A stretch of DNA of 64,000 bases from Cupriavidus malaysiensis. Lineage in GTDB: Bacteria > Pseudomonadota > Gammaproteobacteria > Burkholderiales > Burkholderiaceae. The stretch spans positions 3,224,001 through 3,288,000 of the forward strand of contig NZ_CP017755.1 in the NCBI RefSeq assembly GCF_001854325.1, read 5' to 3'. The position numbers were made by a program, and so were the translations under genes. Position 1 is the stretch's first letter; each line of letters opens with the position of its first letter. The notes under the pieces were generated by a model. The model saw nothing but the letters and a program-made list of their open reading frames with translations. It was not told where the DNA came from and searched no databases. Positions 5,465 to 48,776 of the stretch are shown here, piece after piece.

Positions 5465-5476
5465 GCGGGGCCCATC

Positions 5477-17670: not shown

Positions 17671-18018
17671 ATGAACAGCGACGCCGCCGTCAAAGCCCTG
17701 GCCGCGCTGGCGCAGCCTTCGCGCCTGGCCATTTTCCGCCTGCTGGTCCGGGCCGGCCGTACCGGCCTCTACGCGGGGCAGATCGGGGAAGCGCTCGGCC
17801 TCCCGCCGGCTACCCTGTCCTTCCATCTCAAGGAGCTCTCGCATGCGGGGCTGATCGCGGGCCAGCAGGAAGGGCGCAATGTGCTGTACCAGGTCCAGTT
17901 CCCGCAGATGAACGACCTGATCGGCTTCCTGGTGGAGCACTGCTGCGAGGGTGACGCGCAGGGCTGCGACGTGCCCACCTCCGCCTGCGCGCCGGCAGGC
18001 CGGAAGGCCCGGGCCTAA
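17671..18018 (+). CDS. arsR: ArsR-type repressor 1
   Basis: A 115-residue winged-helix repressor (PSRLAIFRLLVRAG, ATLSFHLKELSHAGLI). A Cys cluster near the C-terminus (EHCCEGDAQGC) resembles As(III) sites of Acidithiobacillus-type ArsR. It is about 60% similar in layout to the second ArsR at 19813. It converges on the aqpS gene. The gap before it (17386-17670) holds AT-richer -10-like stretches (for example ACAATATAGT near 17501) but no operator that I can define. Confidence 0.85.
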   Translation: MNSDAAVKALAALAQPSRLAIFRLLVRAGRTGLYAGQIGEALGLPPATLSFHLKELSHAGLIAGQQEGRNVLYQVQFPQMNDLIGFLVEHCCEGDAQGCDVPTSACAPAGRKARA

Positions 18019-18076
18019 GCCCGCCTGCGCCGCGAGGAGCCCCGGGCCCGCGCGGACAGCCAGGATGGCGGCGCGC

Positions 18077-18781: not shown

Positions 18782-18786
18782 GGCGT

Positions 18787-19290
18787 TCAGCTCCGCGCAA
18801 TGCGCTGCAGCGCGACCTGCAGCTCGGCGTCGCTCATCTCCTCGAGCGGCAGTTGCAACAGTTGCAGCATGCGATAGCCGATGGCCTGGCGCGTCAGCTC
18901 GAAGGCGACCCGCTTGCCGTCGTCGCCACCTTGTGCGTTCGACGGATCGGCGTAGCCCCAATGCACTTTCACGGGGCTTCCCGGCCAGTAGGGACACTGC
19001 TCCGCGGCCGCGCTGTCGCACACGGTGATGACGACCCGCATGCGCGGGGCATCATCCGCCACGAATTCATCCCAGCTCTTGCTGCGGAAACCGGCCGTTT
19101 CCACACCGGCATTCTGCAGTGCCTCGATCGCGAACGGGTTGATGCGGCCGCTCGGCGCGCTGCCAGCGCTGTACGCGCGGACGTCGCGGCCGAGCTGCTG
19201 CGCCAGATGATTGAGCATGCCCTCGCTCAGCACGCTGCGTGCCGAATTGTGGGTGCAGAGGATCAGGACGTTGGTGGTCTTGCCGCCCAT
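18787..19290 (-). CDS. arsC: Arsenate reductase, low-molecular-weight phosphatase type
   Basis: A 167-residue LMW-phosphatase-fold protein. The catalytic loop C-x5-R is CTHNSAR at residues 12-18. A later Cys-containing segment (VITVCDSAAAEQCPYWPG) holds the further redox Cys expected of thioredoxin/glutaredoxin-coupled arsenate reductases. It reduces As(V) to As(III), which the AqpS channel can release. It sits between arsI and aqpS on the same strand. Confidence 0.88.
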   Translation of the reverse strand: MGGKTTNVLILCTHNSARSVLSEGMLNHLAQQLGRDVRAYSAGSAPSGRINPFAIEALQNAGVETAGFRSKSWDEFVADDAPRMRVVITVCDSAAAEQCPYWPGSPVKVHWGYADPSNAQGGDDGKRVAFELTRQAIGYRMLQLLQLPLEEMSDAELQVALQRIARS

Positions 19291-19300
19291 GCCGGCCTCC

Positions 19301-19801
19301 TCAGCAGCAGGACGACTTGGACGTCACGGCCACGCCGATGGGCTTGCCCCTGGGCGCACGCGGCGCGCAGCAGGCCGATTCGGCAGCAGGGGCAGCGGCA
19401 GCAGCGGGCGCCTCGGCCGGCCGGCTTTCGCCGAAGACCGGCACGTTGCCCAGCGTGTGGAAGTGCTCCCAGGCGATGCCTTGCGGATCCGTGATCCAGT
19501 GCTTCTCGCTGCGCGCGTAGCAACAGGTGGTCTCGCCCTCGTCCAGCAGCGCCATGTCGGCCGCCTCGGCGCGCGTCTTCAGCTCCGCCAGTTCCGCCGC
19601 ATCGTCGGTCTGGAAGCCCAGGTGGTCCAGGCCCGCCTGGGTACCACGCGTCGAGATGGCGAAGTTCACCCGCGGATCCTCGAGCATCCACTTGGCGTAG
19701 TCGGCTTCGACCCGCGCCGGCTCCGCCGCGAACAGCTTGGAATAGAAGGCGATGCTCTTGCCGAGGTCATCGACGTGGATGTGTACGTGAAAGCGCTTCA
19801 T
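19301..19801 (-). CDS. arsI: ArsI-type C-As lyase (dioxygenase of the glyoxalase fold)
   Basis: A 166-residue vicinal-oxygen-chelate protein. Likely iron ligands are a His in HVHIHV, H60 (LDHLGFQ) and E112 (WEHF). The vicinal pair C93-C94 (TTCCYAR) matches the As(III)-binding Cys pair of ArsI, which cleaves the C-As bond of trivalent methyl- or aryl-arsenicals. A Cys-rich tail (SACCAP, then KSSCC) is extra. It lies eleven bases after arsR. This gives the operon organoarsenical as well as inorganic arsenic resistance. Confidence 0.82.
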   Translation of the reverse strand: MKRFHVHIHVDDLGKSIAFYSKLFAAEPARVEADYAKWMLEDPRVNFAISTRGTQAGLDHLGFQTDDAAELAELKTRAEAADMALLDEGETTCCYARSEKHWITDPQGIAWEHFHTLGNVPVFGESRPAEAPAAAAAPAAESACCAPRAPRGKPIGVAVTSKSSCC

Positions 19802-19812
19802 GGGGTTCTCCC

Positions 19813-20142
19813 TCAACATTCGCAGACACCGCCGGCGGCGGTGGTTTCCGGGCAGGCGTCTCCCTGGCAGCAGTTCGCCGTCAGGAAGCCCAGCAGTGAA
19901 TTCATATGTTCGAACGCCGCCCGATAGATCAGGTGCCGGCCATCCCGTTGCTGCAGGACCAGGCCCGCGTGCATCAATTCCTTCAGGTGAAAGGACAAGG
20001 TGGCGCCGGGCACCTCCAGGCGCGCCGCGATCGCGCCCGGCGTCATGCCGGCGTGGCCGGCCACCACCAGCAGGCGGTAGACCTCGAGGCGCAGCCCGTG
20101 GGCCAGTGCGGCGAGGGAGCGGATGGCGTCTTGGCTTTCCAT
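19813..20142 (-). CDS. arsR: ArsR-type repressor 2
   Basis: A 109-residue winged-helix repressor (LRLEVYRLLVVAGHAG, ATLSFHLKELMHAGLV). The C-terminal NCCQGDAC cluster is a likely As(III) site. It opens the arsR-arsI-arsC-aqpS operon. A dyad lies directly before its start codon, so autoregulation is expected. A further Cys pair closes the protein (GVCEC). Confidence 0.88.
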   Translation of the reverse strand: MESQDAIRSLAALAHGLRLEVYRLLVVAGHAGMTPGAIAARLEVPGATLSFHLKELMHAGLVLQQRDGRHLIYRAAFEHMNSLLGFLTANCCQGDACPETTAAGGVCEC

Positions 20143-28026: not shown

Positions 28027-28671
28027 TCACAGATCGTCGGCCTCGTCGAACAGGCGGTGGCGGATCGCGTAGCGCACCAGGGCCGCGTCGTTGGCCAGTT
28101 CGAGCTTCTCCATGATGCGCATCTTGTAGGTGCTGACGGTCTTGGCGCTCACGCACAGCGCGGCGGCGATGTCCACCAGCGCCTCGCCTGCGACCAGGCG
28201 GCGGTAGACCTCCATTTCGCGGTCCGACAGGCGCAGGTGCGGTGCTTCCAGCCCTTCCTGCAGGCCGGTGGCGAGCTTCTCGGCGATCGCCTGGCTCATA
28301 TAGGTGCCGCCCGCCGCGACCTTGGCGATGGCATTGACCAGTTCCATCGCCGCGCTCTCCTTGGTCAGGTAGCCGGCGGCCCCGGCACGGAAGGCGCGCA
28401 TCACGTACTGTTCCTCGGCATGCATGGTCAGCACCAGGATGCGCAGCGCGGGACGCTCGGCGCGCAGCAGCCGGATCAGTTCGAGCCCGCTGCGCCCGGG
28501 CATCGACAGGTCGAGCAGCAGCAGTTCGGGCTCGCTTTCCCTGGCCAGGCGCGGCACCTCGGCACCGTCCGCCGCCTCGGCCACGATCTCGAAGCCCCCA
28601 GCGCGTTCCAGGATGTGGCGCAGGCCGTCGCGCACCACGGCGTGGTCGTCGGCGATCATCACCCGGATCAT
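28027..28671 (-). CDS. NarL/FixJ-type response regulator
   Basis: A 214-residue regulator. The receiver has ADD near residues 7-9, phospho-acceptor D54 (LLLLDLSMPG) and Lys in YLTKESA. A LuxR-type helix-turn-helix follows (LSDREMEVYRRLVAGE, VSAKTVSTYKMRIMEKL). Its start overlaps the stop of the kinase gene (ATGA), so the two are a pair. Known relatives control oxygen or redox responses, but its targets cannot be read here. Confidence 0.9.
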   Translation of the reverse strand: MIRVMIADDHAVVRDGLRHILERAGGFEIVAEAADGAEVPRLARESEPELLLLDLSMPGRSGLELIRLLRAERPALRILVLTMHAEEQYVMRAFRAGAAGYLTKESAAMELVNAIAKVAAGGTYMSQAIAEKLATGLQEGLEAPHLRLSDREMEVYRRLVAGEALVDIAAALCVSAKTVSTYKMRIMEKLELANDAALVRYAIRHRLFDEADDL

Positions 28672-29984
28672 GCGTGCTCCTCCTCGCCGCAGCCCGCCAC
28701 CGCCGGGAAGCGCACGGTCAGGCCGAAGCCCGCGCCCGGCGTGTGCGCGATGGCCACGCTGCCGCCGATCAGCCTGGCGCGCTCGCGGATGCCGAGCAGG
28801 CCGAACGACACCCGCCTGCCGCGCTCCGGCATCTTGCCGTCCCAGCCGCAGCCATTGTCGCGCACGGTCAGCTGGTACCAGTCGCCGGCACGTACCAGCG
28901 CGATCTCGACGGCCGTCGCGTGGGCATGGCGCGCGACATTGTTGAGCGCCTCCTGCACGATGCGGTAGACGGCGGTGCCGGTGCGCTCGGGCACCTCGAC
29001 CTCGTCGCCGAGCGCGTGCGGCTCGATGCGGATGCCATAGCGCGTGGAGAAGTCCTTGGCCAGCCACTCGATGGCGGGCACCAGTCCCAGCTCGTCGAGC
29101 AGCGCCGGCCGCAGGTCGGCGGCGATGCGCCGCACCGAGCCGACGGTCTCGTCGATGACCGCCTGCATGGCGGCGATCTGCGCGCGCGCGGCATCGGCGG
29201 CGGCGGTCTGGCGCAGGTCCTCGTCGAGCATGGCGAGATCCATCTTGAGTGCGCTCAGCCGCTGCCCGAGATCGTCGTGCAGTTCACGCGCGATGCGCCG
29301 CTTCTCCTCCTCGCGCGCGGCCAGGATGCTGTCGGAAAGCTGCTGCAGTTCCTCGCGCGAGCGGCGCAGCGCCTGCTCGGCCAGCACGCGCTCGGTGGTG
29401 TCGCGCAGCATCACGGTGTACAGCTTGCCGCCGCCGTCCGGGGTCTGCGAGATGGAGGCCTCGATGGGAAACTCGACGCCGTCGCGCCGCAGCGCGTACA
29501 GGGTGCGCTGCTGTCCCATCTGCCGCTCGGTGACGCCGGTCACGCCGAAACGGCGCACATGGCGTTCGTGGGCGGCGCGGTAGCGCGCCGGGATGAAATC
29601 GCCGAGCTGGCGGCCCAGGGCGTCCTCCGCCTTCCAGCCGAACAGGGTCTCCGCCATCGGGTTGAACAGCACCACGCACTGCTGCTCGTCGACGGTGATG
29701 ATGGCCTCCATCGACGAGCGGATGATGCCGGCCAGGCGGGCCTCGCTTTCGGTGGCCAGCGCGGCGGCGCCCGCCGCGGCCTTGCCGTCCGGCACCGGTA
29801 GCGGCACCCGGACCGTGCGCCGCCGCGCCGCCAGCGCCGCGGCGGCCATCGCGGCAACGGCAGCGATAGCGGCAACGCAGGCCGCCAGCTTCGGTGCGGT
29901 ACGCCCGGCTGGATCCGAAGAAGTGGAGGAATGACCACGCAGCATGCGGGGGAAGGGGGCGGAAAAATGCCTTGGCGGGGGCAT
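28668..29984 (-). CDS. PAS-domain sensor histidine kinase (NarX/FixL-like)
   Basis: About 438 residues. A membrane segment (residues 33-53), a PAS domain (about 83-200), a HisKA_3 domain with the phospho-His in ARELHDDLGQRLSALK, and an ATPase domain (EALNNVARHAHA, DNGCGWDG, FGLLGIRERA). The PAS region, with a His in YRAAHERHVRRF and an Arg in MGQQRTLYALRRDG, lines up with the haem His and nearby Arg of FixL, so haem-based O2 sensing is possible but not proven. Start uncertain: 29984 and 29945 both lack a good ribosome-binding site. Confidence 0.82.
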   Translation of the reverse strand: MPPPRHFSAPFPRMLRGHSSTSSDPAGRTAPKLAACVAAIAAVAAMAAAALAARRRTVRVPLPVPDGKAAAGAAALATESEARLAGIIRSSMEAIITVDEQQCVVLFNPMAETLFGWKAEDALGRQLGDFIPARYRAAHERHVRRFGVTGVTERQMGQQRTLYALRRDGVEFPIEASISQTPDGGGKLYTVMLRDTTERVLAEQALRRSREELQQLSDSILAAREEEKRRIARELHDDLGQRLSALKMDLAMLDEDLRQTAAADAARAQIAAMQAVIDETVGSVRRIAADLRPALLDELGLVPAIEWLAKDFSTRYGIRIEPHALGDEVEVPERTGTAVYRIVQEALNNVARHAHATAVEIALVRAGDWYQLTVRDNGCGWDGKMPERGRRVSFGLLGIRERARLIGGSVAIAHTPGAGFGLTVRFPAVAGCGEEEHA

Positions 29985-30354: not shown

Positions 30355-31143
30355 ATGCTTGATACCTGCCCCCACGTCAGCGCGGATACCTTTCCCATCT
30401 CCCTGCCGTCGCACCGCCCGCAGCCAGCGCATGGCACCGAGGACAGCGCCGCCCCGGGCCCGGACGGCGCCGCGCGCTGCAACCGCTGCATGCTGCAAGG
30501 CGTCTGCTCCGGCATGTGCGGGCAGGCGCGCCCGGCGCCCGCCGACGGGCGCACCTGGCGCCTGGTCAAGCGCGGGCAGTACCTGTTCCGTGCCGGTGAC
30601 GCCTTCCAGAGCGTCTACACGCTGCGCGCCGGCACCATGAAGACCGTGGTGCCCGCGCCCGGCGGCGGCGACCAGGTCACCGCCTTCTTCCTGGCCGGCG
30701 AGACCCTGGGGCTGGACGGCATCGACTCGGAGACCCACACCTGCGATGCGGTCGCGCTGGAAGACAGCGCCGTGTGCGTGATCCCCTTCGGCGTGCTGGA
30801 GGCGCTGTGCCGCGAGACGCGCGACCTGCAGCACCGCCTGCTCAAGGTGATGAGCGCCGGCCTCGTGCGCGAGTCCGAGCACGCGATGCTGCTGGCAGGC
30901 CTTTCCGCCGAGCAGCGCGTCGCTTCCTTCCTGCTCAACCTGTCGGCGCGGCTGCGCGCGCTCGGCTATTCGTCGACGGCCTTCTCGCTGCGCATGACGC
31001 GCGAGGAAATCGGCAGCTACCTCGGCATCAAGCTGGAAACCGTCAGCCGCATCCTGTCGCGCTTCCAGCGCGAGGGCTGGGTGCAGGTCCGCTCCAAGTC
31101 GATCACCCTGCTCGACCCCGCAGCGCTGCGCGTGCTGCTGTAG
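30355..31143 (+). CDS. fnr: FNR-type oxygen-sensing transcription regulator
   Basis: A 262-residue CRP/FNR-family protein. C42-x2-C45-x5-C51 at the N-terminus and C141 (SAVCVIPF) match the four ligands of the oxygen-labile [4Fe-4S] cluster of FNR. A cyclic-nucleotide-type beta barrel, a dimer helix and a helix-turn-helix follow. The recognition helix ETVSRILSRFQ keeps the E-x2-S-R residues that read TTGAT/ATCAA. It is therefore the natural candidate to act on the dyads in this window. The 35 residues before the first Cys of the cluster are longer than in E. coli FNR. Confidence 0.9.
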   Translation: MLDTCPHVSADTFPISLPSHRPQPAHGTEDSAAPGPDGAARCNRCMLQGVCSGMCGQARPAPADGRTWRLVKRGQYLFRAGDAFQSVYTLRAGTMKTVVPAPGGGDQVTAFFLAGETLGLDGIDSETHTCDAVALEDSAVCVIPFGVLEALCRETRDLQHRLLKVMSAGLVRESEHAMLLAGLSAEQRVASFLLNLSARLRALGYSSTAFSLRMTREEIGSYLGIKLETVSRILSRFQREGWVQVRSKSITLLDPAALRVLL

Positions 31144-31663: not shown

Positions 31664-33940
31664 TCAGTAGCCAACCGTCAGCGTGGCCTGGAAGGAGCGG
31701 CCGGGAGCGGGCGAATGCAGGTTCTGCGTGCCGTCGTTCCACACGTACTCGTAGTAGCGGTCGGCCAGGTTCTTGACCTGCAGGTCCAGCATCACTGACT
31801 TGGCGAGGCGGTAGCCGAGCCCGGCGTTGAGCAAGGCATAGGCGCCGTAGCGGCCCGTGCTGTTGGTCTTCTCCAGGTAGTAGCTGCTCTGCGCGCTGCC
31901 CCACAGCGACAGGCGCAGCGCGGGCGTGGCCTGGTAGTCGAGCCCGGCCGAGACCATGCGGTCGGGCACGTGGTCGATCTGCTTGCCGGCGGTGACGCCA
32001 TCGCCGGGGCCCGGATCGACGATGCGGGCCATCTGGAAGGCATAGGCGAACCACAGGTTCAGCCCTGCCATCGGCCGCAGATTGGCCTGCAAGTCCACGC
32101 CCCGGCGCCGCGTCTTGCCCAGGTTGTCGTAGTCGCCCGACGGATCGTTGAGCTTGCGCTTGACCTCATTGGAGGCCAACTGCTCCCAGTAGGCGACGCG
32201 CCCTTCCAGCCACGCGGCCGGGCGGAACTTGACCCCGGCCTCCCAGCCGTCGTTGAGCGACGGTGACAGGTCGGCGGTGCGTGGCGGGATCTTGTAGGCG
32301 CCGGCGCCGGTGCCGGCCTGGAAGGTGCGGCCCCAGTTGCCGTAGAGGCTGTAGCCGTCGGCCACGGCCAGCACCGCGCTGATCCTGGGCTGGCCGATGG
32401 TGCCGTAGTCGTTGATGGCGTAGTCCTGTCCGTTCAGGCCGTTGGCGAAGCCGCCACGGATCACGTCGACGCGGTAGGCCGGCACCAGCCTGAGCGCGGG
32501 CAGCGGCTGCAGCACGGCCTGCACGTAGGCGCCATAGACGTCGAAATCGAACGCCTGGTCGCGCGTCTGCGCCGTGCGCACCTGGGCCACCGTGGTGTAG
32601 CGCAGGCTGCGGTTATGCTGGCGCTCCATGTCCACGCCCCCTTCCAGCGCGAAGCCGCGCAGCCAGGACGGCTCGAGGCGGGGCCGCCACGTCATCACGC
32701 TGCTGGCGCCGAACTGCTGCTCGTCGGCGAAGCGCTCCTGCTGCGACACGTTGGCGGAGTAGGTGACGTAGCGCCGGTCGCGGAAGGTGTTCAGGTAGAT
32801 CTTGCTGGCCCAAGATACGGTCTCACCGAGGTCGGTGTCGGCGTGCAGGCTGTACTGCCCCGTTTCGCGCGTGCCTTCGTCGGTGCTGTTGAAGGCGTAG
32901 GACGCGGACGGGCGGGTGTAGGCGTCGGCCCCGGTCAGATAGCCGGGCTCCTGCGCGTGTCCGCTGTAGTAGCGCGCCATCGCGCCCACGCGCCAGCTGC
33001 CGTCGTCCGGCGTGAAGAACCACTTGCCCGAGAGCGCCAGCTTGTCATAGCGCGAGTGGTCGCGCCAGCCATCGCTGCGGCGGTAGCCGAAGGCATAGTT
33101 CTGCGCCAGGTTGCCGTTGTCGTAGCCTGCCACCGCTTCGGTATCGGCCGTGCCGAAGCTACCGTAGCCGACCCGCCCGCGCGCATAGTTGCCGCCCTGC
33201 AGCGTCTGGATGCCGGCATTGCCGGCGATGTTGTGCAGCCCGTAGCGCGGATCGTTGGTGCCGCGCACCGTCTCCAGCGAAGCGATCTCGAGCGGGAACA
33301 CACCGTCGATGAAGGGCATGTTGCCATCGTTGCTGTTGCTGGGGATACCGTCGATCAGCAGCTTGACCGCGTTGATCTCGCCCTCGCCGTTGAAGCCGCG
33401 GAAGGACAGCTTGCCCGAGGTGGTGCCCTGGTTGAAATCGGTCAGCAGCACGCCGGGCATCTGGCCGAACAGTTCCCAGGCATACCCCACGCTCTGGTCG
33501 ACCATGCGGTCCGCGCCGAGCACGTCGACCGAGGTCAGCACATTGCGCGTGGAGAGCTTGCCGCTCCGGCTGGCCTGCACGGTGACGCCGCCGAGCGTCA
33601 GCGTGGAGTCCGCGCGCTGCGCGTCGGCGCCGCGGCGCGCGCCCGCCTTGCCGCTCGCCACGCCGCGCTCTCCTTCAGCCGCCACCTCGGCCGCCACCTC
33701 CGTGGCGCCGCCGGCCGCGTCGCCATCGCCGGCCCCGGTCCCGGCCCAGGCGCCGCCGGCCAGCGCGATGGTGCCGATTGCCAGCCAGCGGCGGCGCGGC
33801 CTGCCCCTCGGGGCGGCCGGAACGGCGCAAAGGCGGGCCGCGGGACGCGGGGCGGATGGAGACGGCGAGGAAGACGCCTGTGCCGCGGGGGCGGCGGCAT
33901 GGCGCCGGCGCCGGTCGGCGCGCGATCGGTCAGGTGGCAT
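31664..33940 (-). CDS. TonB-dependent outer-membrane receptor 1
   Basis: A 758-residue receptor. The N-terminal segment RRRWLAIGTIALAGGAWA may be a long signal peptide, followed by an Ala/Glu/Gly-rich spacer. The plug domain (VLTSVDVLGADRMVDQSVG, LSFRGFNGEGEINAVKLLIDG cited in part) begins near residue 145. A 22-strand barrel ends in an aromatic residue (ATLTVGY). No FecA-like signalling domain is seen. It is divergent from receptor 2, near the mbn genes, so it is one of two candidates for methanobactin uptake. The substrate cannot be told from sequence. Confidence 0.85.
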   Translation of the reverse strand: MPPDRSRADRRRRHAAAPAAQASSSPSPSAPRPAARLCAVPAAPRGRPRRRWLAIGTIALAGGAWAGTGAGDGDAAGGATEVAAEVAAEGERGVASGKAGARRGADAQRADSTLTLGGVTVQASRSGKLSTRNVLTSVDVLGADRMVDQSVGYAWELFGQMPGVLLTDFNQGTTSGKLSFRGFNGEGEINAVKLLIDGIPSNSNDGNMPFIDGVFPLEIASLETVRGTNDPRYGLHNIAGNAGIQTLQGGNYARGRVGYGSFGTADTEAVAGYDNGNLAQNYAFGYRRSDGWRDHSRYDKLALSGKWFFTPDDGSWRVGAMARYYSGHAQEPGYLTGADAYTRPSASYAFNSTDEGTRETGQYSLHADTDLGETVSWASKIYLNTFRDRRYVTYSANVSQQERFADEQQFGASSVMTWRPRLEPSWLRGFALEGGVDMERQHNRSLRYTTVAQVRTAQTRDQAFDFDVYGAYVQAVLQPLPALRLVPAYRVDVIRGGFANGLNGQDYAINDYGTIGQPRISAVLAVADGYSLYGNWGRTFQAGTGAGAYKIPPRTADLSPSLNDGWEAGVKFRPAAWLEGRVAYWEQLASNEVKRKLNDPSGDYDNLGKTRRRGVDLQANLRPMAGLNLWFAYAFQMARIVDPGPGDGVTAGKQIDHVPDRMVSAGLDYQATPALRLSLWGSAQSSYYLEKTNSTGRYGAYALLNAGLGYRLAKSVMLDLQVKNLADRYYEYVWNDGTQNLHSPAPGRSFQATLTVGY

Positions 33941-34207
33941 TGCGCAGGGGCGGGAACGATAGGCCGCGGGACGGAAGTCGGGCGGCGCCGGCCGATGCGC
34001 GGCGCATCCCGCGGATGCCGGACGATTCTAGCGGCCGCCACCGCCGCGCGGCGTGCGACAGATCGACGCGGGACCGCCGGCGCGGCCAAATGCCACATCG
34101 TGTCTGCGAGCGTGCGCCGATAAAGTGGCGCCGAAAAAAATGAAGCGCGGGCGGCCCGCAGGCTGCGGCCGCGCGACAAGACAAGACGCCAAGGAGGAAG
34201 GACCGCG

Positions 34208-36271
34208 ATGAATCGACATGTGCTGCTGGCCTGCACGCTGGGCACCGCGCTCGCTCCGGCATGGTGCAGCGAGCCGCTGCTGGCCGCCGAGGAGAACGGG
34301 GGCAAGCGCGCCGCGGCCACCCTCGACCCGGTGGTGGTGTCGGCCACCCGTACCGGCAACATGCTGTCGGCCACAGCCGCCTCGGTCAGCGTGGTCACGC
34401 GCGACGACTACGAGGAACGCCAGGCGGACTCGGTATCCGACGTGCTGGGCACCCTGCCCAACGTCGACTTCGGCGGCGGTCCGCGCCAGGCCGGCGAGAT
34501 CCCCTCGATCCGCGGCTTCACCGGCAAGGAAATCACGCTGACGATCGACGGCGCGCGCCAGAACGGCGCGGCCGGCATCACCTCGCCGCTCTACCTCGAC
34601 CCCTATTTCCTCGCCGGCACGGAAGTGATGCGAGGCGCCGCCTCCTCGCTGTATGGCAGCGGCGGGCTGGGCGGTGCCATGGTGTTCCGCACGCTGTCGG
34701 CGCGCGACCTGCTCGCCCCCGGCCAGGCGGCCGGGGGCGACGCGCGCGCAGGCTACACCTCGGCCGACCGCTCGCCGCACTATAACGGCCGCGCCTACGG
34801 GCAGTATGGCCCGCTCGATGCGCTGGCGGCCTTCGGCTACGCGGAGTCCGGACCCATCCGCCAGGGCGGCGGCACGCTGCTGTCGCCCAACGACGGCCAT
34901 ACCGGCAGCGGCCTGTTCAAGCTCGGCCTGGAGCCGACCGGGCGGCTGCGCTTCGAGCTGTCGCACCTGTCCTATCAGAGCGGCACGCTGCGCCCGAACA
35001 ATCCGGAAGCCGACAGCAGCCTGGGCACGTCGTCGACGGTGCCGGTGCAGAACAATCGCGTCAGCCAGGAACAGACCGTGCTCAAGGGCACGCTCAAGGA
35101 CACCGAGGGCCGGCCCGAGCTCGACATCACGCTGTATCGCACCCGCCTCAACCTGAGCGCGGACGCCAATCCATCCGTCTCCTCGCTGCCGGTGACAGCC
35201 AACGTGACCACCACCACCGGCGCCTCGCTGCAGCACTCGATCGCGCTGCCGGGCGAGGTGGTGGGGCAGCGCATCACTTACGGCCTGGACTATTACCGCG
35301 ACGAGCAATACGCGTCGAGCGCCGGCGCGGCCAACCCTGTGATCCCGAACGGCGCGCAGAAGGTCTACGGCGCCTTCGTGCAGGACGAGATCCGCCTGGG
35401 CGAGCCATGGCGCCTGACACCCAGCCTGCGCGCCGACCGCTACGACACCGACGTCGGCGCCAACAGCGCGGCGGACAGCCATGTCTCGCCCAAGCTGACG
35501 CTGGCCTGGCAGCCGGCGGCGCGCGGCAAGCTGTATGCCAGCTTCGGCGAGGCCTACCGCGCGCCGTCGATCAGCGAGTCCTTCCAGAACCTGTCGGGCC
35601 GCCACTACCTGTTCAACTTCGCCGCCAACCCCGACCTCAAACCCGAGACCGCGCGTACCCTGGAACTGGGCGGCTCGCTGCAGGGCAGGGACCTGCTGGC
35701 GGCGGGCGACAGCGCGCGGCTGCGCGCCTCGGTGTTCCAGTCCTGGATCAAGGACCTGATCGCGAGCACGGTGATCGGCACCTATGCGCGCACCGCGCCC
35801 TTCGCCGGCGTCGGCACCATCACGCAGTACCGCAACGTCAGCAATGCCACCAGCCGCGGCGCCGAGGTCGAAGGCCTGTACCAGTCCGGCGGCTTGAGCT
35901 TCGGCGCGGCCTACAGCCGCGTGCGCACCACCGACGACGGCAACGGCGGCTACCTGTACTCGCCACCCGACAAGGTGGTGCTGACGCTGCGCCAGGCGCT
36001 GCCGCGCTGGCGCACCACGCTCGGCTGGACCAGCTCCCTGGTGGCCGCGCAGGACTATGACTCGACGCTGCTGCGGCGGCGCCCCGGCTATGGCGTGCAC
36101 AGCCTCTACGCGAGCTGGACCCCGCCCGGTGTCAAGGACCGGCTGCGCCTGGACGTCGGCATCGAGAACCTGTTCGACAAGCGCTACTTCCCCTACCAGT
36201 CCGGCAACGCGGTGGCCTACACCGCGGACACGGGCCGCAACTTCAAGATCGCGCTGAGCGCCAGCTTCTGA
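34208..36271 (+). CDS. TonB-dependent outer-membrane receptor 2 (haem-receptor-like)
   Basis: A 687-residue receptor with a signal peptide (LLACTLGTALAPAWC), a TonB-box-like LDPVVVSATRTG, a plug and a barrel ending in ALSASF. The YRAP and NPDL motifs (EAYRAPSISESF, FAANPDLKPETA) resemble the FRAP/NPNL box of haem and haemoglobin receptors. It lies 76 bp before mbnP on the same strand and may be cotranscribed with it. It could therefore carry a copper-peptide complex instead of haem; context and motif point different ways. AGGAGGA precedes the ATG. Confidence 0.85.
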   Translation: MNRHVLLACTLGTALAPAWCSEPLLAAEENGGKRAAATLDPVVVSATRTGNMLSATAASVSVVTRDDYEERQADSVSDVLGTLPNVDFGGGPRQAGEIPSIRGFTGKEITLTIDGARQNGAAGITSPLYLDPYFLAGTEVMRGAASSLYGSGGLGGAMVFRTLSARDLLAPGQAAGGDARAGYTSADRSPHYNGRAYGQYGPLDALAAFGYAESGPIRQGGGTLLSPNDGHTGSGLFKLGLEPTGRLRFELSHLSYQSGTLRPNNPEADSSLGTSSTVPVQNNRVSQEQTVLKGTLKDTEGRPELDITLYRTRLNLSADANPSVSSLPVTANVTTTTGASLQHSIALPGEVVGQRITYGLDYYRDEQYASSAGAANPVIPNGAQKVYGAFVQDEIRLGEPWRLTPSLRADRYDTDVGANSAADSHVSPKLTLAWQPAARGKLYASFGEAYRAPSISESFQNLSGRHYLFNFAANPDLKPETARTLELGGSLQGRDLLAAGDSARLRASVFQSWIKDLIASTVIGTYARTAPFAGVGTITQYRNVSNATSRGAEVEGLYQSGGLSFGAAYSRVRTTDDGNGGYLYSPPDKVVLTLRQALPRWRTTLGWTSSLVAAQDYDSTLLRRRPGYGVHSLYASWTPPGVKDRLRLDVGIENLFDKRYFPYQSGNAVAYTADTGRNFKIALSASF

Positions 36272-36347
36272 GCGCCGCGCCGCGAGCCCCGCCTTCCCCG
36301 GCGCCCGCCAGCGGGCGCCGCTTCCCGACATCCGCTGAGGCCATGCC

Positions 36348-37313
36348 ATGCTGCCCCGTCCCGCCATCCGCCTGCTGCCTCCCGCCGCGCCCCTTCTTCT
36401 GCTGGCCGCCTGCGCTGCGCCACTGCCGGCGCAGCTACCCGGCGCGGGCGCGGAGGGCACGGTGCCGGTGCAAGTCCCGGTGGCGGTGCGCTTCGCCGCG
36501 CGTGTCGGCGCGCAGCCGTTCCGCTGCGGCGCCGGCTACGACGGCATCGGCCGCACGGCCTCGCGCATCACGCCATCCGACTTCCGCTTCTACGTGTCGT
36601 CGGTGGCGCTGCTCGACGAGGACGGGCGCGACGTGCCGCTGCGCCTGGAGCAGGACGGCCGCTGGCAGTACCGCGACGTGGCCCTGCTCGACTTCGAGGA
36701 CGGCAGCGGTCCCTGCCGCAACGGCAACGCCGGCCTGCACGAGGCCGTCACCGGGCACGTGCCGGCGGGCCGCTACCGCGGCCTGCAGTTCACGCTGGGC
36801 GTGCCGGCCGACCTCAACCACGGCGACCCTGCCGTGGCGCCGCCGCCGCTGAACCTGAGCGCGATGTTCTGGAGCTGGCAGGCCGGCTACAAGTTCGTCA
36901 AGATCGACATGGCCACGCGCGGCCAGGCACGGGGCGGCACCGCCCCTCCCGCAGACGCCGCCCCCGTGCCGGCGGCCGCACCGCGCCGCCGCGCGGCCGG
37001 CTTCCCCATCCACCTGGGCAGCACGGATTGCGTGTCGCCGGCGGCCACCGCGGCGCCGTCTTCGTGCGCGCGGCCCAACCGCGTCACGGTGCGCCTGGAC
37101 GCCTTCGACGTAGCCACCGAGCAGGTCGAATTCGATCTCGCCGCGCTGCTGCGCGACACCGACGTGGACGTCAACGCGCCGGACAGCGCGCCCGGCTGCA
37201 TGGCCGGCCCGGACGATGCCGACTGCCGCTTCGTGATGCCGGCCTTCGGCCTGCCCTTCGACGGCCAGCCGGCGCTGCCGCAGCGCGTCTTCCGCGCCGC
37301 GCCGCGCGGCTGA
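36348..37313 (+). CDS. mbnP: MbnP-family periplasmic copper protein
   Basis: A 321-residue protein with a lipoprotein-type signal (LLLLAACAAPLP). Conserved Cys residues (FRCGAG, GPCRNG, STDCVSP, SSCARP, PGCMAG, ADCRF) and the Trp-rich FWSWQAGYKFVKID match the MbnP family. In methanotroph MbnP the partner MbnH converts a Trp to kynurenine, which then helps bind copper. The gene is followed directly by mbnH. A Pro/Ala-rich insert (about residues 195-220) is unusual. Confidence 0.87.
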   Translation: MLPRPAIRLLPPAAPLLLLAACAAPLPAQLPGAGAEGTVPVQVPVAVRFAARVGAQPFRCGAGYDGIGRTASRITPSDFRFYVSSVALLDEDGRDVPLRLEQDGRWQYRDVALLDFEDGSGPCRNGNAGLHEAVTGHVPAGRYRGLQFTLGVPADLNHGDPAVAPPPLNLSAMFWSWQAGYKFVKIDMATRGQARGGTAPPADAAPVPAAAPRRRAAGFPIHLGSTDCVSPAATAAPSSCARPNRVTVRLDAFDVATEQVEFDLAALLRDTDVDVNAPDSAPGCMAGPDDADCRFVMPAFGLPFDGQPALPQRVFRAAPRG

Positions 37314-37316
37314 GCC

Positions 37317-38519
37317 ATGCCGATGCGACGCCTGCGCACCGGCCTGGCCCTGGCGGCCGCGGTGGTGGTCGCGCTGGCCGGCCTGACCGGAGCGGCCGCA
37401 CCCGAGGCCACCTCCGCCGCCACCCCGGCCGCCACCCCCGCGGACGACTACCGCTGGGCGCTGCCCGACTGGATGCCCCGTCCGGTGGTACCGGCCGACA
37501 ATCCGATGTCGGCCGCCAAAGCCGAACTGGGACGCCACCTGTTCTACGACAAGCGCCTGTCGGCCGACGGCAGCATCGCCTGCGCGAGCTGCCACCTGCA
37601 GGCGCGCGCCTTCACCGACGGCCGCCAGCTGCCGCTCGGCGTGCACGGCACACCCGGCGTGCGCAATGCGATGAGCCTGGGCAACGTGGCCTACCTGCCG
37701 GTGCTGACCTGGGCCAACCCCAACCTCAAGCGGCTGGAGCGCCAGCTGCTGGTGCCGCTGTTCGGCGAGACGCCGGTGGAAATGGGCATGGCCGGCCAGG
37801 AGGCGCGCCTGCTCGACACCCTGCGCGCCGACCCGCGCTACCCGGCGCTGTTCCGCGCCGCCTACCCCGAACGCGCCGGCACGCCGGACCTGGTCTCGCT
37901 GGCCACCATCAGCCGCGCGCTGGCCACCTTCGAGCGCACGCTGCTCAGCTTCGATGCGCCCTACGACCGCTACAAGTACGGCGGCCGGCCCGACGCCATC
38001 AGCGCGTCCGCCAAGCGCGGCGAGGCGCTGTTCTTCAGCGAGCGGCTCGAATGCGCGCACTGCCACGGCGGCTTCAACTTCACCGACAACAACCTGCACG
38101 CACGCCTGGCCGATGCCGAGTCCGGCTTCCACAACACCGGCCTCTACAACCGGGACGGCCACGGTGGCTATCCGGCCGGCAACCACGGCCTCCGCGAGTT
38201 CACCGGCGACCCCGCCGACGAGGGCAGGATGCGCACACCCTCGCTGCGCAACGTCGCGGTGACCGCCCCCTATATGCACGACGGTTCCATCGCCACGCTG
38301 CGCGAGGTACTGCGCGACCACTATGCGATCCAGGGCCGCGCCGCCAGCGGCCCGCACGGCCCCAGCCCGCTGCGCAGCGAGTTCATCGAAGGCTTCACGC
38401 TCAGCGCGCAGGAACTCGACGACGTGGTGGCCTTCCTCGAAGCGCTGACCGACCACGGCTTCCTCACCGACCCACGCCTGGCCGATCCGTGGCCGGCCGG
38501 CGGCGCGGCGGCGCGCTGA
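37317..38519 (+). CDS. mbnH: MbnH-family di-haem cytochrome (MauG-like)
   Basis: A 400-residue periplasmic protein with a signal peptide (LALAAAVVVALAGLTGAAA). Two haem c sites, CASCH (near residue 85) and CAHCH (near 245), place it in the di-haem peroxidase/MauG family. MbnH oxidises a Trp of its partner MbnP. It starts one base after the mbnP stop, so the two are translated together. It converges on mbnC. Confidence 0.9.
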   Translation: MPMRRLRTGLALAAAVVVALAGLTGAAAPEATSAATPAATPADDYRWALPDWMPRPVVPADNPMSAAKAELGRHLFYDKRLSADGSIACASCHLQARAFTDGRQLPLGVHGTPGVRNAMSLGNVAYLPVLTWANPNLKRLERQLLVPLFGETPVEMGMAGQEARLLDTLRADPRYPALFRAAYPERAGTPDLVSLATISRALATFERTLLSFDAPYDRYKYGGRPDAISASAKRGEALFFSERLECAHCHGGFNFTDNNLHARLADAESGFHNTGLYNRDGHGGYPAGNHGLREFTGDPADEGRMRTPSLRNVAVTAPYMHDGSIATLREVLRDHYAIQGRAASGPHGPSPLRSEFIEGFTLSAQELDDVVAFLEALTDHGFLTDPRLADPWPAGGAAAR

Positions 38520-38547
38520 GGCGGCGGTCGGCCCGGCGCGCCGCCTC
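38518..38547. terminator. Hairpin spanning both convergent stop codons
   Basis: GAGGCGGC / GCCGCCTC is an 8-bp perfect inverted repeat. Its arms overlap the stop codons of mbnH (plus strand) and mbnC (minus strand), which are 26 bp apart. A bidirectional terminator is likely, though no T-tract is present. Confidence 0.5.
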
Positions 38548-39160
38548 AGCGCGGCACCGCCATCCAGCCGGGAAAGGTGTCGAGCGTGAAGCCGGGCACG
38601 AGGAAATGGCCGAAGCGGTCCGGCGGCGCGTCGAGCGGCTCGTCCAGCGCGATGCGCTCGACCCGGCGCGCGCCGTCCACGCTGGCGCATTTCCAGCCCG
38701 CCACCAGCACAGGCGAGGCTGCCTGCGCGTCGGCCAGCACGATGCCGGCGTGGCGCCCGCGATCGACCGCGGCCCAGCGCGCCGCCGAGGCGGCCAGCAG
38801 GGTCTCGGCCAGCGTGGGCGGCAGCCGCGCGGCGAATTCCGACTGGCACAGCCAGCGGTAGACCCAGAGGTAGACGCTCCAGCCGAGCGACAGCCGCTGC
38901 GCCTCGGCCCAGGCCATGAACGGGCGGAAAATGCGCAGCCCGTCGGGGCCGGACAGCTCCAGCAGCGCGGGACAGACGTCGAACAGCGTGTGCCAGTAGG
39001 CGCGCAGGCTGGTATCGATGCGCACGAAGGCGGCGGACTCGCGCGCGAAATCCGACTGCAGCGCCGGCACGCTCAGCGCCGGCAGCAGTTCGGCATCAGT
39101 GCGCACCGTGCGTGGCGGGACGGCATACGCCGGCCGGGTGGCGTGAATGTCAGTCGGCAT
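38546..39160 (-). CDS. mbnC: Methanobactin biosynthesis protein MbnC
   Basis: A 204-residue protein. MbnC is the partner of MbnB; together they turn Cys residues of MbnA into oxazolone-thioamide groups. The sequence (LQSDFARESAAFVRID, WHTLFDVCPALLEL, WSVYLWVYRWLCQSEFAA, HFLVPGFTLDTFPGW) and its place directly after mbnB support this. Start 39160 overlaps the mbnB stop by 11 bases. In-frame ATGs at 39172 and 39184, inside a 12-bp repeat, are possible alternatives and would add MPTL units. Confidence 0.82.
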   Translation of the reverse strand: MPTDIHATRPAYAVPPRTVRTDAELLPALSVPALQSDFARESAAFVRIDTSLRAYWHTLFDVCPALLELSGPDGLRIFRPFMAWAEAQRLSLGWSVYLWVYRWLCQSEFAARLPPTLAETLLAASAARWAAVDRGRHAGIVLADAQAASPVLVAGWKCASVDGARRVERIALDEPLDAPPDRFGHFLVPGFTLDTFPGWMAVPR

Positions 39161-40019
39161 CAAGGTCGGCATCAAGGTCGGCATCAAGGTCGCGATCTGG
39201 GTCGCGATCTGGGTCGGCGGGAGCGGGGTCGGCGGCAAAGAGCGCGCGCAGGCGCCGCACCTCCGCGCGCACCGCAGCGGCATCGATGGCGGCGTCGCGC
39301 TCGTAGGTGAGGGTATGGCCGGGCGCGTCGATCAGCGGGCGCAGCGCCCGCAGCCAGGCCATGGTGTCGTCGGCGAGGTCGGCGTCATGGGTATCGAGCG
39401 CCAGCTTCGGCGCCAGCATCGATTCGCCATAGCCGGCCACGTGGAAATGGCTGGCACGCGCCGCCACCGGCAGCCAGGCATCCAGCGCGAGGCCGCAGTT
39501 GCGCTGCGCGCAGACCGCGTTGGAGAGGTCGAACAGCAGGCCGCAGCCGGTATCGTCCATCAGGCGCGTGAAGCAGTCCGGTGCATCGTGCCCGCCCGGC
39601 AGCAGCGAGGGGTAGTTCTCCAGGTGCAGGCGCACGCCCAGCTGCTGCTGCCACCATTGCACACGCGCGCGCAGCGCGGCATAGCCCGCGCGGTAGTCGA
39701 CCTCGGCCAGGTGGTAGAGGTGGCGGCCCTGGTGGGTGAAGGTAGCCACATGGTCCGAGACATAGAGCGGGCGCAGCACCGCGATGTAGTCGCGCAGGCG
39801 TTGCGCCAGCGCCTCCAGCGCGGCCTGGTCGTTCTCGAGGAAGCGCGAGAACATGATGTGCAGGCCGAGCGGGCAGGGAAAGGCGGCGGCCAGTTCGGCG
39901 GGCGGGACCTGCAGGAAGTTGTCGATCAGCAGTTCGCAGTAGTCGATCTCGCCGTCCTGAGCCATCTGCCGTACGAAGGGATAGGTACTGCCCAGCGTGT
40001 AGTTGAAGCCGATCAGCAT
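39150..40019 (-). CDS. mbnB: Methanobactin biosynthesis protein MbnB (DUF692)
   Basis: A 289-residue TIM-barrel protein of the DUF692 family. Likely iron ligands are in LHIMFSRF, YVSDHVAT, LHLENYP, LLFDLSNAV, HFHVAGYG and LDTHDAD. MbnB uses oxygen to oxidise Cys of the MbnA core. The last 25 residues are an Asp-rich repeat (DPDR, then DLDA units) outside the usual fold, coded by 12-bp tandem repeats that also code the N-terminal region of mbnC. Start 40019 (ATG) is chosen; a TTG five codons upstream is an alternative. It follows mbnA by 63 bp. Confidence 0.9.
   Translation of the reverse strand: MLIGFNYTLGSTYPFVRQMAQDGEIDYCELLIDNFLQVPPAELAAAFPCPLGLHIMFSRFLENDQAALEALAQRLRDYIAVLRPLYVSDHVATFTHQGRHLYHLAEVDYRAGYAALRARVQWWQQQLGVRLHLENYPSLLPGGHDAPDCFTRLMDDTGCGLLFDLSNAVCAQRNCGLALDAWLPVAARASHFHVAGYGESMLAPKLALDTHDADLADDTMAWLRALRPLIDAPGHTLTYERDAAIDAAAVRAEVRRLRALFAADPAPADPDRDPDRDLDADLDADLDAD
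39154..39214 (-). repeat. 12-bp tandem repeats in the mbnB/mbnC overlap
   Basis: Three copies of a 12-bp unit (GTCGGCATCAAG on the plus strand) are followed by two of GTCGCGATCTGG and a degenerate pair. The units keep both frames open: DLDA and DPDR repeats in MbnB, LMPT and QIAT repeats in the frame of mbnC. Confidence 0.85.
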
Positions 40020-40082
40020 GGGTCGGGAGCGCAACGGAGGAAGGGCGGCGCCCGCACCGCGGGCGCCGTTGCACCGGTGCCG

Positions 40083-40175
40083 TCAGGCACCCAGGGCGGC
40101 ACAGCAGGCGCCGCAGCAGGCGCCGGCGCGGCCGGGGACTTCGATGGTCTGCTGGCTTGCGATACGGATCTTCAT
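40083..40175 (-). CDS. mbnA: Methanobactin precursor peptide MbnA
   Basis: A 30-residue peptide gene, easily missed because of its size. The leader begins MKIRIASQQTIEV and ends at a P-G-R, matching the M-x-I-K/R-I-A ... V-x-G-R pattern of known MbnA leaders. The core, AGACCGACCAALGA, holds two Cys-Cys pairs spaced by Gly-Ala. The methanotroph OB3b precursor has a similar leader and Cys-rich core. GAGGAA lies eight bases before the ATG. mbnB and mbnC follow on the same strand. The mature product should bind copper through two modified Cys residues; which ones cannot be told from sequence. Confidence 0.88.
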   Translation of the reverse strand: MKIRIASQQTIEVPGRAGACCGACCAALGA

Positions 40176-40194
40176 GTCGATTCCTCTTGCTGTC

Positions 40195-40233
40195 GGGGTT
40201 GGGGTTGGGGTTGGGGTTGGGGTTGGGACTGGG
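40195..40233 (+). repeat. (GGGGTT)5 G-quadruplex-type repeat before mbnA
   Basis: Five perfect GGGGTT units (40195-40224) are followed by GGGACTGGG. The array begins 19 bp upstream of the mbnA start. G-runs are on the template strand and CCCCAA is on the coding strand. The sequence can form a G-quadruplex in DNA. The mbnA promoter must lie in or beyond it (40234-40356), where I can offer only weak candidates. Confidence 0.92.
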
Positions 40234-40356
40234 AATATCTGCAAGCCCCTGCGCGCCATATCGCACGTGCAGGAGCGTCCACAGCATAAGCAGTGGCGCC
40301 CTCCGGCGCAGCGTGACGGATTGCCGCAACCCCGATCGCCTCCGGCCCGTGCGCTG

Positions 40357-40986
40357 TCAGGCCCTGCCCGCCAGGCAGTCCACCACCTCCTCGTCGCTGA
40401 CCTGCGGGAACGACAGATAGTGGTGCCCCACCGCCTGGAAGCCTGCCGGCGCGTACAGGCAGACCACCTCGTCGGCATACGCCTGCACCTCCCGCAGGCC
40501 ATCGGGCGCTGCCACCGGCACCGCGCATACCAGCCGCGCCGGCGCCTGCGCGCGCACGGCGTGCAGCGCGGCGATCATGGTGGCCCCGGTGGCCAGCCCG
40601 TCGTCCACCACGATGGCCACGCGGCCGGCCGCAGAGGGTGCCGCCGCACGGCCCGGCGTATAGCGCGCGCGCCGCTGCCGGATGCGCTCCAGTTCCTCGG
40701 CGCGCACGCGCTCCAGGTAAGCGCTGCCGGCAGTGGGCTCGGCGTAGGGCGCCAGATAGGTCCAGCCGTCTTCGGCCACGGCGCCCAGCGCGAACTCGGG
40801 GTCGCCCGGCGCGCCGAGCTTGCGCACCAGCACCACGTCCAGGTCCGCCTGCAGCGCGTCGGCCAGCACGCGCCCCAGCGGCACGCCGCCGCGCGGCAGG
40901 GCCAGTACCAGGGCACGCTGCCCGCGGTAGTGGCCCAGTGCATCGGCCAGCTGCGCGGCCGCGTCCTGCCTGTCTACGAATCGCAT
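40357..40986 (-). CDS. Phosphoribosyltransferase-family protein
   Basis: A 209-residue type I PRTase-fold protein. The PRPP loop is VAIVVDDGLATGATM, and ALPRGGVPLG near the N-terminus is the usual first loop. Members of this group are annotated as putative phosphoribosyltransferases and often sit among USP genes; the substrate is unknown. Start 40986 has GAGGGG upstream; a start six codons earlier is possible. It follows the periplasmic gene by 18 bp and is upstream of mbnA on the same strand. Confidence 0.85.
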   Translation of the reverse strand: MRFVDRQDAAAQLADALGHYRGQRALVLALPRGGVPLGRVLADALQADLDVVLVRKLGAPGDPEFALGAVAEDGWTYLAPYAEPTAGSAYLERVRAEELERIRQRRARYTPGRAAAPSAAGRVAIVVDDGLATGATMIAALHAVRAQAPARLVCAVPVAAPDGLREVQAYADEVVCLYAPAGFQAVGHHYLSFPQVSDEEVVDCLAGRA

Positions 40987-41004
40987 CTTCGGCCCCTCTT
41001 CCAT

Positions 41005-41544
41005 TCACCGCCGCCCGCAAGGTGCCGCCGCGCGCTGGCAAGGCGCGCCGGCCTGTGGCGGCGCGGCCAGCAGCTCGGCCGGTTCGTTCCGCGCGGGAAA
41101 GCGCAACTGCAGGTCGAGCGCGCGCCCGCCCGGCTTGACCTCGATGCCGTGGGACTCGATGGTGACGCCATAGCGGATCACCGCGCGGTAGGTGCCCGGC
41201 TCCAGTTTGAGAAACAGGTAGGGGCCTTCGCTCAGCACCAGCAGCACGATCTCGCGCCGCGCGTTGAACAGGGTCACCGACACATCGGACAAGGACCCGT
41301 CGCCGCCGCTGTCGAGGAAATGCATGCGCACATTGAAGCGCGGCGCGATGCGGCGCAGCGCGGCGGCCTCATCGCTGCCGATGCCGCCGGACACGTAGGT
41401 GATCCCGTTCACATGGTGCAGCGGTGGCACACCGCCTTCCTGCACGGCAGGCGCGTCCGCCGCGATGCCGACGGCCGGCACGCCAGCCGCCAGCGCCAGG
41501 CCGGTGATGCCGAGCAGACTCAGTTTCCTTGCCAGGGCGCGCAT
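41005..41544 (-). CDS. Secreted protein of unknown function
   Basis: A 179-residue protein with a signal peptide (LSLLGITGLALAAGVPAVGIAA). The mature part has a beta-rich segment, with VSVTLFNARREIVLLVLSEGPYLFLKLEPGTY resembling carboxypeptidase-regulatory-like folds (cited in part). It also has an I-T-Y-V-S-G-G-I-G motif that is common in periplasmic proteins of Burkholderiales. No enzyme motif is seen. AGGAG is in front of the ATG. It is first in an operon with the phosphoribosyltransferase, behind an FNR-like promoter. Confidence 0.72.
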   Translation of the reverse strand: MRALARKLSLLGITGLALAAGVPAVGIAADAPAVQEGGVPPLHHVNGITYVSGGIGSDEAAALRRIAPRFNVRMHFLDSGGDGSLSDVSVTLFNARREIVLLVLSEGPYLFLKLEPGTYRAVIRYGVTIESHGIEVKPGGRALDLQLRFPARNEPAELLAAPPQAGAPCQRAAAPCGRR

Positions 41545-41630
41545 GCTGCCCTCCTCGCTGGTTGGAGGCGTCGGGGCGCCCCGGCCGGCTCACGCGGAGC
41601 GGACGGGGCCACGCCGCGATGCTTGCTTCG

Positions 41631-47711: not shown

Positions 47712-48776
47712 TCAATCCTTCGGCCGGAAGGTGATGGTGAAGCGTGTCGGCAGGCGGCCGTCGTCGGGCAGCGGGAAGGGCGCGGACAGCGCCACCGCGC
47801 GCATCACCGCAGTGTCCCAGCGCGCGTCGCCGCTGGACTGCACCAGCCGGGACTGCAGCAGGCTGCCGTCGCCGCGCAATTCCACCATCACCACGGCGGC
47901 AGGGTTGCCCGCGATCTCGGCGTCGACGCGCACGTTCGGCCGCACGCGCCGCCGCACCGCATCGGCGAAGGCGCGCGCCGACGACGTACCCGTGCCGGCA
48001 GCCGGCATGGGCGCCGCGGCGGCACCGGCGGCCGGCAGCAGGCCATCCAGGTCCTGCAGGCTCGCCTGTCCGGTGGCGGGCGGCGGTGCCTTGGCGGCAG
48101 CGGGCGCAGCCGCCAGCGACGCCACCGATGCCACCGGCGCCTCGGTCTGCGATGGGGCGGCCCGGCCCGCCGTGCCGGCGCCGGCACCTTCGAGCCGGCT
48201 GCCCTGGCCAAGGGCGATCTCGCGGCAGCCCGGCAGCATGTGGTCGCGGATCAGGCCGTTGGTCAGGTCCACCGCGAACACGGCGCCGCGCTCGGCCAGC
48301 GGGATCACGGTGCCGCCGCGCCCGAAGTCGAAGCTGCCGCGCCAGACCGGCCGATGCCCTTGCATGGCGCCCAGCGTGGCGAGATAGTGGATCGAAATGC
48401 GGTTGCCGCCGCCCATCATGACCACGCCGCCGCCATGGGCGATGGTCAGCAGCGTATCGGCGCGGAAATCGGCGGCGCGCTGGACCGGCGTGCGCTGGTC
48501 CAGTTCCAGCCCCGACAGTTCGACGAAACCGGCGGTATTGCCGCAGGCGCCGACGATCTCCTGGAACTTCTGCTGGAAGGCCTGCGAGAACTCGCTGCCC
48601 CAGCCCATGCCCGCGCCGGTGGCGACATAGATGCGGCCGGGCCGGGCGACATAGTCCGAGGCATGGTTGGTCTGCACCACGGTGGCAGGCGCGCAGCCGG
48701 CCAGCAGCACGGCGGCGAGCAGGGAGAGCGCCGCGGGCAGGCGCGGCACGGAGCATGGCGGGATCGGCAGCAGCAT
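47712..48776 (-). CDS. Lipoprotein with TonB/TolA-like C-terminal domain
   Basis: A 354-residue lipoprotein. The signal peptide ends in a lipobox (AAVLLAGC). The middle has a region of unknown fold (YVATGAGMGWGSEFSQAF, GGGVVMMGGGN). After an Ala/Pro-rich linker (about residues 205-270), the last 85 residues match a TonB C-terminal domain (VRPNVRVDAEIAGNPAAVVMVEL cited in part, FPLPDDGRLP). Such domains link the envelope to inner-membrane energy systems. The start was chosen for the signal peptide; longer starts have none. Confidence 0.72.
   Translation of the reverse strand: MLLPIPPCSVPRLPAALSLLAAVLLAGCAPATVVQTNHASDYVARPGRIYVATGAGMGWGSEFSQAFQQKFQEIVGACGNTAGFVELSGLELDQRTPVQRAADFRADTLLTIAHGGGVVMMGGGNRISIHYLATLGAMQGHRPVWRGSFDFGRGGTVIPLAERGAVFAVDLTNGLIRDHMLPGCREIALGQGSRLEGAGAGTAGRAAPSQTEAPVASVASLAAAPAAAKAPPPATGQASLQDLDGLLPAAGAAAAPMPAAGTGTSSARAFADAVRRRVRPNVRVDAEIAGNPAAVVMVELRGDGSLLQSRLVQSSGDARWDTAVMRAVALSAPFPLPDDGRLPTRFTITFRPKD

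Follow-up and report, generated by a model that had tools for sequence, protein, structure and literature searches.

A probable Group III methanobactin cassette with a cysteine-doublet core and no detected MbnM in Cupriavidus malaysiensis

We found that a six-gene cassette in Cupriavidus malaysiensis is very probably a Group III methanobactin cassette, which is the best explanation for its gene content and layout. The cassette lies in the window, by which we mean the whole 64,000-nucleotide stretch of DNA that was analyzed. The window is part of contig 2 (3.39 Mb); the genome has three contigs totaling 7.95 Mb. On the minus strand, mbnA, mbnB, and mbnC span 38546-40175, exactly where the original prediction had placed them, and each scores above its own curated cut-off. 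An mbnT-like TonB receptor, mbnP, and mbnH run convergently on the plus strand, with 26 bases separating the end of mbnH from the end of mbnC. In profile searches, curated cut-offs were exceeded by the precursor, MbnB, MbnC, MbnP, and MbnH, and with five families passing, the reading of mbnABC as a methanobactin operon is supported. The genes, their families, the active-site residues, the cysteine register, and the co-occurrence of the genes all rest on direct evidence here. The cassette is of an ordinary kind, its novelty lying in the species and the core sequence; the methanobactin family and its occurrence in the genus Cupriavidus are already in print. Indeed, the mention of Cupriavidus mbn operons in the original prediction was correct, as Cupriavidus basilensis B-8 is assigned to Group III, with two cysteine doublets, in Kenney and Rosenzweig 2013 (PMC3621798). 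The features are as follows.

40083..40175, minus strand: mbnA, 30-aa precursor (TIGR04071, PF25751, register against 25 other precursors)
39150..40019, minus strand: mbnB, MNIO (DUF692) iron oxygenase, 289 aa from the ATG at 40019 (TIGR04159, 7fc0_E, iron-site residues, tree)
38546 to about 39160, start uncertain, minus strand: mbnC, partner subunit, leader-binding in relatives (TIGR04160, 7fc0_F)
37317..38519, plus strand: mbnH, di-heme MauG-like enzyme (TIGR04039, 6e1c, two CxxCH motifs)
36348..37313, plus strand: mbnP, copper-binding partner of MbnH (TIGR04052, PF20243, 7l6g, WSW motif)
34208..36271, plus strand: TonB-dependent receptor, mbnT-like by context (TIGR01785, homologues in 20 of 32 named loci)
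39153..39216, no strand: 12-bp tandem repeats in the mbnB/mbnC overlap (repeat search; database MbnB P0002 one 4-residue unit shorter)
40195..40227, no strand: 6-bp repeat (GGGGTT on the plus strand), 5.5 copies, immediately upstream of the probable mbnA ribosome-binding site

MbnA (MKIRIASQQTIEVPGRAGACCGACCAALGA), translated from the minus-strand open reading frame at 40083-40175, comprises the leader MKIRIASQQTIEVPGR and the core region AGACCGACCAALGA, with cysteines at positions 20, 21, 24, and 25. Against TIGR04071 it reached 57.4 bits (cut-off 24, E 8.3e-16), and its score for PF25751, the Pfam Methanobactin family, was 45.2 bits (cut-off 27), so the 30-residue precursor with a leader and two cysteine pairs that had been proposed is real. 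A leader/core pattern fit only 1 of 1153 start-to-stop readings of 20-60 amino acids in the window, MbnA itself, with nested starts counted separately; since this pattern was written after MbnA was known, the independent evidence for MbnA is the TIGR04071 E-value. The remainder of the cluster also agrees with Group III membership: MbnB lies directly downstream with its iron-site residues, mbnC follows immediately and overlaps mbnB, the core carries two cysteine doublets, and the TonB receptor provides at least one transport gene, which in a methanobactin cluster may be either a MATE-type MbnM or a TonB receptor (PMC3621798). Cysteine doublets are usual in Group III rather than strict, as Tistrella has two single cysteines (PMC3621798).

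The presence of MbnB and MbnC downstream of the precursor was borne out by scores of 432 bits against TIGR04159 (cut-off 325) and 276.5 bits against TIGR04160 (cut-off 185). MbnB aligns to Rugamonas rubra MbnB, 7fc0_E, over 260 residues without gaps (338.7 bits, E 2.4e-100) and more weakly to 7tcr, while MbnC scored 194.4 bits against 7fc0_F and also matched 7tcr_C. The MbnB iron-site residues H54, H90, E134, D164, N167, H193, D209, H211, and E240 are present, and all nine are invariant in a 25-sequence alignment, whose numbers run one lower because its reference began at residue 2. These residues were matched by order and spacing to the ligands of VcMbnB, for which PMC8888699 lists eight iron ligands and also names His211. 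Asp242, the proposed general base of Rugamonas MbnB (PMC8888699), is likewise found in the window MbnB, and its column is invariant in the same alignment. When the profile comparison suggested in the original prediction was carried out, no unrelated DUF692 system scored better for MbnB, the best competitor being BufB at 73.4 bits (cut-off 310). TIGR04061, which competes for MbnC, exceeds its cut-off as well (191.1 bits against 124.15), yet the MbnC model wins.

The 12-bp repeats at the mbnB/mbnC overlap are read in two frames, giving the DLDA units that end MbnB and the LMPT units that start MbnC. Each LMPT unit contains an ATG, and mbnC probably starts at one of those in the repeat (39160, 39172, or 39184) rather than at the longest ATG, 39283. 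Since the database MbnB P0002 is identical except for residue 2 and one 4-residue unit fewer, the copy number of the repeat probably varies between strains, in steps that keep both frames.

MbnP, MbnH, and the TonB receptor, which had been placed across a convergent border, are all present there. MbnH scored 457.7 bits against TIGR04039 (cut-off 362.85) and 367.9 bits against the solved structure 6e1c, and it has two CxxCH motifs, CASCH at 89 and CAHCH at 246. MbnP scored 284.4 bits against TIGR04052 (cut-off 140), 139.3 bits against PF20243, and 148.7 bits against 7l6g; it carries a WSW motif at 175-177, and its N-terminus is lipobox-like by eye. MbnH would convert a tryptophan of MbnP to kynurenine, and MbnP would handle copper in the periplasm.

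To place the core cysteines in register, we used the leader as a ruler and allowed no gaps. The MbnB alignment yielded 32 named loci, from which precursors were extracted by script, and 25 of these, chosen by leader pattern and the presence of a cysteine regardless of cysteine position, gave 26 rows with the window (21 distinct sequences). Four Acetobacteraceae loci (L027, L028, L029, and L034), whose leaders are spaced differently, were excluded, as were L030, L031, and L032, which lack a clear precursor (L032 has one weak candidate); in the stretches that were compared, L036 and L057 (genome G419) proved to be the L010 contig and were not counted a second time. Cys21 occurs in 26/26 aligned precursors and Cys25 in 24/26, and cysteines 20, 21, 24, and 25 occur together in 13/26, the window included (12 of the 25 others). 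Rugamonas MbnA has no cysteines besides Cys21 and Cys25, and according to mass data either of them can be the modified residue. Modification is lost when both are changed to serine, copper is bound by the modified peptide, and the crystal shows Cys25 as an iron ligand (PMC8888699). Since Cys21 and Cys25 of the window align with the positions modified in Rugamonas, modification probably falls on the second cysteine of each pair, and in doublet cores the first cysteine likely takes the place of the preceding residue (Arg20 and Ser24 in Rugamonas). The register thus predicts rings formed from Cys-Cys pairs and two spare thiols.

The best score of the receptor at 34208-36271 is with a heme-type TonB receptor model, TIGR01785 (436.4 bits). 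Next to the cassette, 31664-33940 (minus strand) encodes another TonB receptor, which is without a match in the C. basilensis locus. Three Pseudomonas loci have homologues of it (56-57% identity) close to the mbn cluster; they are found past mbnC, at about 1.8 kb in L011 and L022 and at 5.7 kb in L012. About 8 kb from the cassette, a TonB C-terminal domain protein (47712-48776, minus strand; PF13103, 70 bits) may be able to energize a receptor.

Many relatives have a long same-strand open reading frame after mbnC (16 loci were looked at), and the one in Gallionella is a MatE protein. No MbnM-type reading frame follows mbnC in the window, in C. basilensis, or in two Rugamonas loci. When whole genomes were searched with Gallionella MbnM, the query matched Gallionella itself and Comamonas; the window's genome, C. 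basilensis, and R. rubra gave no hit. Those three genomes and Rugamonas sp. CCM 8940 also gave no hit with Comamonas MbnM, which matched 4/4 controls (Achromobacter, Chromatiales, Methylocystis, and Pseudomonas). The window's genome has 11 MATE domain matches, 10 over the cut-off and none within the window; unlinked MATE genes scoring above it lie at 3.32 and 4.23 Mb on C1 and at 1.67, 2.88, and 3.13 Mb on C2. There may be a distant exporter. In the published survey, MATE genes occur in 13 operons and the remainder are left open, several being on small contigs (PMC3621798); because the window's genome is in three contigs, the lack of a close MbnM stands on firmer ground here. We tentatively propose, at somewhat less than even confidence, that the methanobactins of Cupriavidus, and separately those of Rugamonas, exit without MbnM, by an unlinked or general transporter or by lysis.

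Going by solved relatives, MbnC would hold the MbnA leader while the tri-iron center of MbnB would oxidize Cys21 together with Cys20, and Cys25 together with Cys24, the preceding residue in each case, to oxazolone/thioamide pairs, after which a protease would remove the leader. The peptide may then leave the cell, bind copper, and return through the receptor at 34208-36271, presumably with a role in copper starvation. By analogy, the window peptide would carry two oxazolone/thioamide groups. Two rings per peptide are not assured, since Rugamonas MbnA is modified at either Cys21 or Cys25 and MtMbnA at Cys21 only (PMC8888699). These same observations are compatible with a product in which a single ring is formed, or in which the first cysteine of a doublet is used; such a product would differ in its copper site and contain free thiols or a disulfide. 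Group V precursors, which have a single cysteine (PMC3621798), point the same way, and our literature search, in which most subscription journals were out of reach, found no structure of a mature product with a cysteine-doublet core. On the other hand, the second cysteine of each doublet aligns with the modified Rugamonas positions, and an earlier study is cited in PMC8888699 for a second modification of MtMbnA, at Cys27. We consider such a product rather unlikely, and modification at Cys21 and Cys25 remains our preferred reading. In Rugamonas, each modified cysteine brings mass shifts of 2 and 4 Da, with absorbance near 335 nm (PMC8888699). For the window precursor, two full modifications would lower the computed monoisotopic mass from 2948.43 to 2940.36, and that of residues 17-30 from 1140.42 to 1132.36. 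RrMbnBC acts on precursors from Groups I-V, among them that of Azospirillum sp. B510, a Group III precursor (PMC8888699) with two cysteine doublets (PMC3621798).

The genus Cupriavidus is known for metal resistance, and it is conceivable that MbnB makes a thiooxazole or another MNIO product of the bufferin type, so that the peptide buffers excess copper with no scavenging. The BufB and HvfB models do match MbnB, but weakly: HvfB reached 43 bits of 360 and BufB fell short of its own cut-off as given above, against 432 over 325 for the MbnB model. The partner protein is MbnC, and the precursor has a methanobactin leader where bufferins and oxazolins carry Sec signal peptides (PMC12452194). Membership of the bufferin and oxazolin classes was rejected on these grounds, and we regard a buffering peptide as very improbable. 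Thiooxazoles typically absorb near 305 nm (PMC12668002). It is also improbable, although slightly less so, that the cassette is decaying, with no exporter and no secretion, and serves only to take up the methanobactin of others through its receptor. The failure of two queries to find mbnM in the window's genome would fit such decay; however, all six cassette genes are open, the iron-site residues of MbnB are kept, the same six genes recur without a detected mbnM in C. basilensis, and Rugamonas, also without a detected mbnM, has an MbnBC that is active in Escherichia coli (PMC8888699).

The cassette is rare among close relatives. MbnB scored over the cut-off in 2 of 398 sampled family genomes, the window's own and C. 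basilensis (G419); at E 0.001, 146 of the 398 had a match, nearly all far below the cut-off. MbnP was found in 2/60 genus genomes, the same two that pass for MbnB, and MbnC matched 2/60 relatives, passing the cut-off in one, the window's own genome (G419 was outside this set). When 19 kb of DNA was compared with 60 genus genomes, with five candidates scored per genome, the cassette was matched only in G419 and the window's own genome among the matches listed, the others being to flanking genes. Of ten window proteins compared with the C. basilensis locus, all six cassette proteins recur and 0/4 flanking ones do, which fits a movable cassette. Base composition (0.71-0.73 in the cassette, 0.716 in the window) gave no sign of recent transfer. 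Plasmid records gave one short megablast match to Cupriavidus necator outside the cassette (202 bases, 75.8%), while a distant blastn search gave matches of 67-71% to five Methylocystis/Methylosinus plasmids on which mbnB and/or mbnC are annotated.

Among the 32 named loci, some of them on truncated contigs, 20 have a homologue of the TonB receptor next to the cluster and 22 have MbnP together with MbnH. In 17 of these 22, MbnP and MbnH are on the same strand as mbnABC, in 4 (all Methylocystis) they are divergent upstream, and in 1, C. basilensis, they are convergent downstream as in the window. In the MbnB tree, the window and C. basilensis group together (99/95); ten inner forks are open and several branches are long. 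A separate, long-branched group in this tree is formed by MbnB/MbnC-like pairs without a clear precursor from a Chromatiales MAG, an Elusimicrobia MAG, and Archangium of Myxococcota (L030, L031, and L032). Three Pseudomonas loci also have a divergent second MbnC-like protein (L011 3015-3425, L012 19642-20019, and L022 3046-3408; 38-45% identity).

Scans of 33900-41600 gave 0 promoter-like sites and 1 terminator-like site where 2.0 were expected, comparison of words and palindromes in the two Cupriavidus upstream regions gave no convincing common motif, and no Rfam family reached its gathering score in the window. We saw no regulator gene within the cassette itself; at a distance of 3-6 kb there are a Crp-type regulator (30355-31143) and a two-component pair (28027-29849). 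Elsewhere in the window, we noted by eye an apparent second F-type ATP synthase operon (4437-9371, judged from open reading frame starts) and ArsR-like, aquaporin-like, and phosphatase-like reading frames at 17671-20142 that resemble an arsenic resistance cluster.

No pmoA/amoA family match was found in the window's genome, with 3/3 methanotroph controls positive, nor in C. basilensis or R. rubra. As neither a methane nor an ammonia monooxygenase was detected in the host, scavenged copper would have some other use. The window adds a second Cupriavidus lineage with a full methanobactin cassette, and we found no paper on its core in the literature within our reach, which left out most subscription journals. 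Two points deserve to be pursued, the predicted Cys-Cys register and the exporter that was not detected; the latter makes secretion a question that can now be tested in two betaproteobacterial genera. If both hold, this would be a chalkophore with a different export route and, given the predicted Cys-Cys rings, two extra thiols beside the copper site.

The closest known system is that of C. basilensis, where our sequence comparison rests on strain GW210010_S58 (L010, contig NZ_JARJLM010000124.1) and not on B-8. It shares with the window all six genes, the convergent layout, and a precursor with two cysteine doublets in the same register; identities are 59% for MbnB, 66% for MbnC, 71% for MbnH, 69% for MbnP, and 67% for the receptor, and the core is SGACCGSCCAAIGA in place of AGACCGACCAALGA. 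Rugamonas rubra (family Oxalobacteraceae), like the window's host a betaproteobacterium, has MbnABC enzymes that have been solved (PDB 7fc0) and are active when expressed in E. coli (PMC8888699). Its MbnB is 59% identical to that of the window and shares the iron-site residues, and no mbnM was found in either genome, but its core has two cysteines (RCASSCGAKS) and all its genes are on one strand. The Group III loci of Pseudomonas and Azospirillum (L011, L012, L007, and L026) share the CC..CC register and, like the window, hold the receptor, MbnP, MbnH, MbnA, MbnB, and MbnC in one cluster; they differ in having cores that end APVGVN or APLGVN and genes on one strand, and in Pseudomonas protegens, the one of these four genomes that was searched, MbnM was confirmed, unlike in the window's genome.
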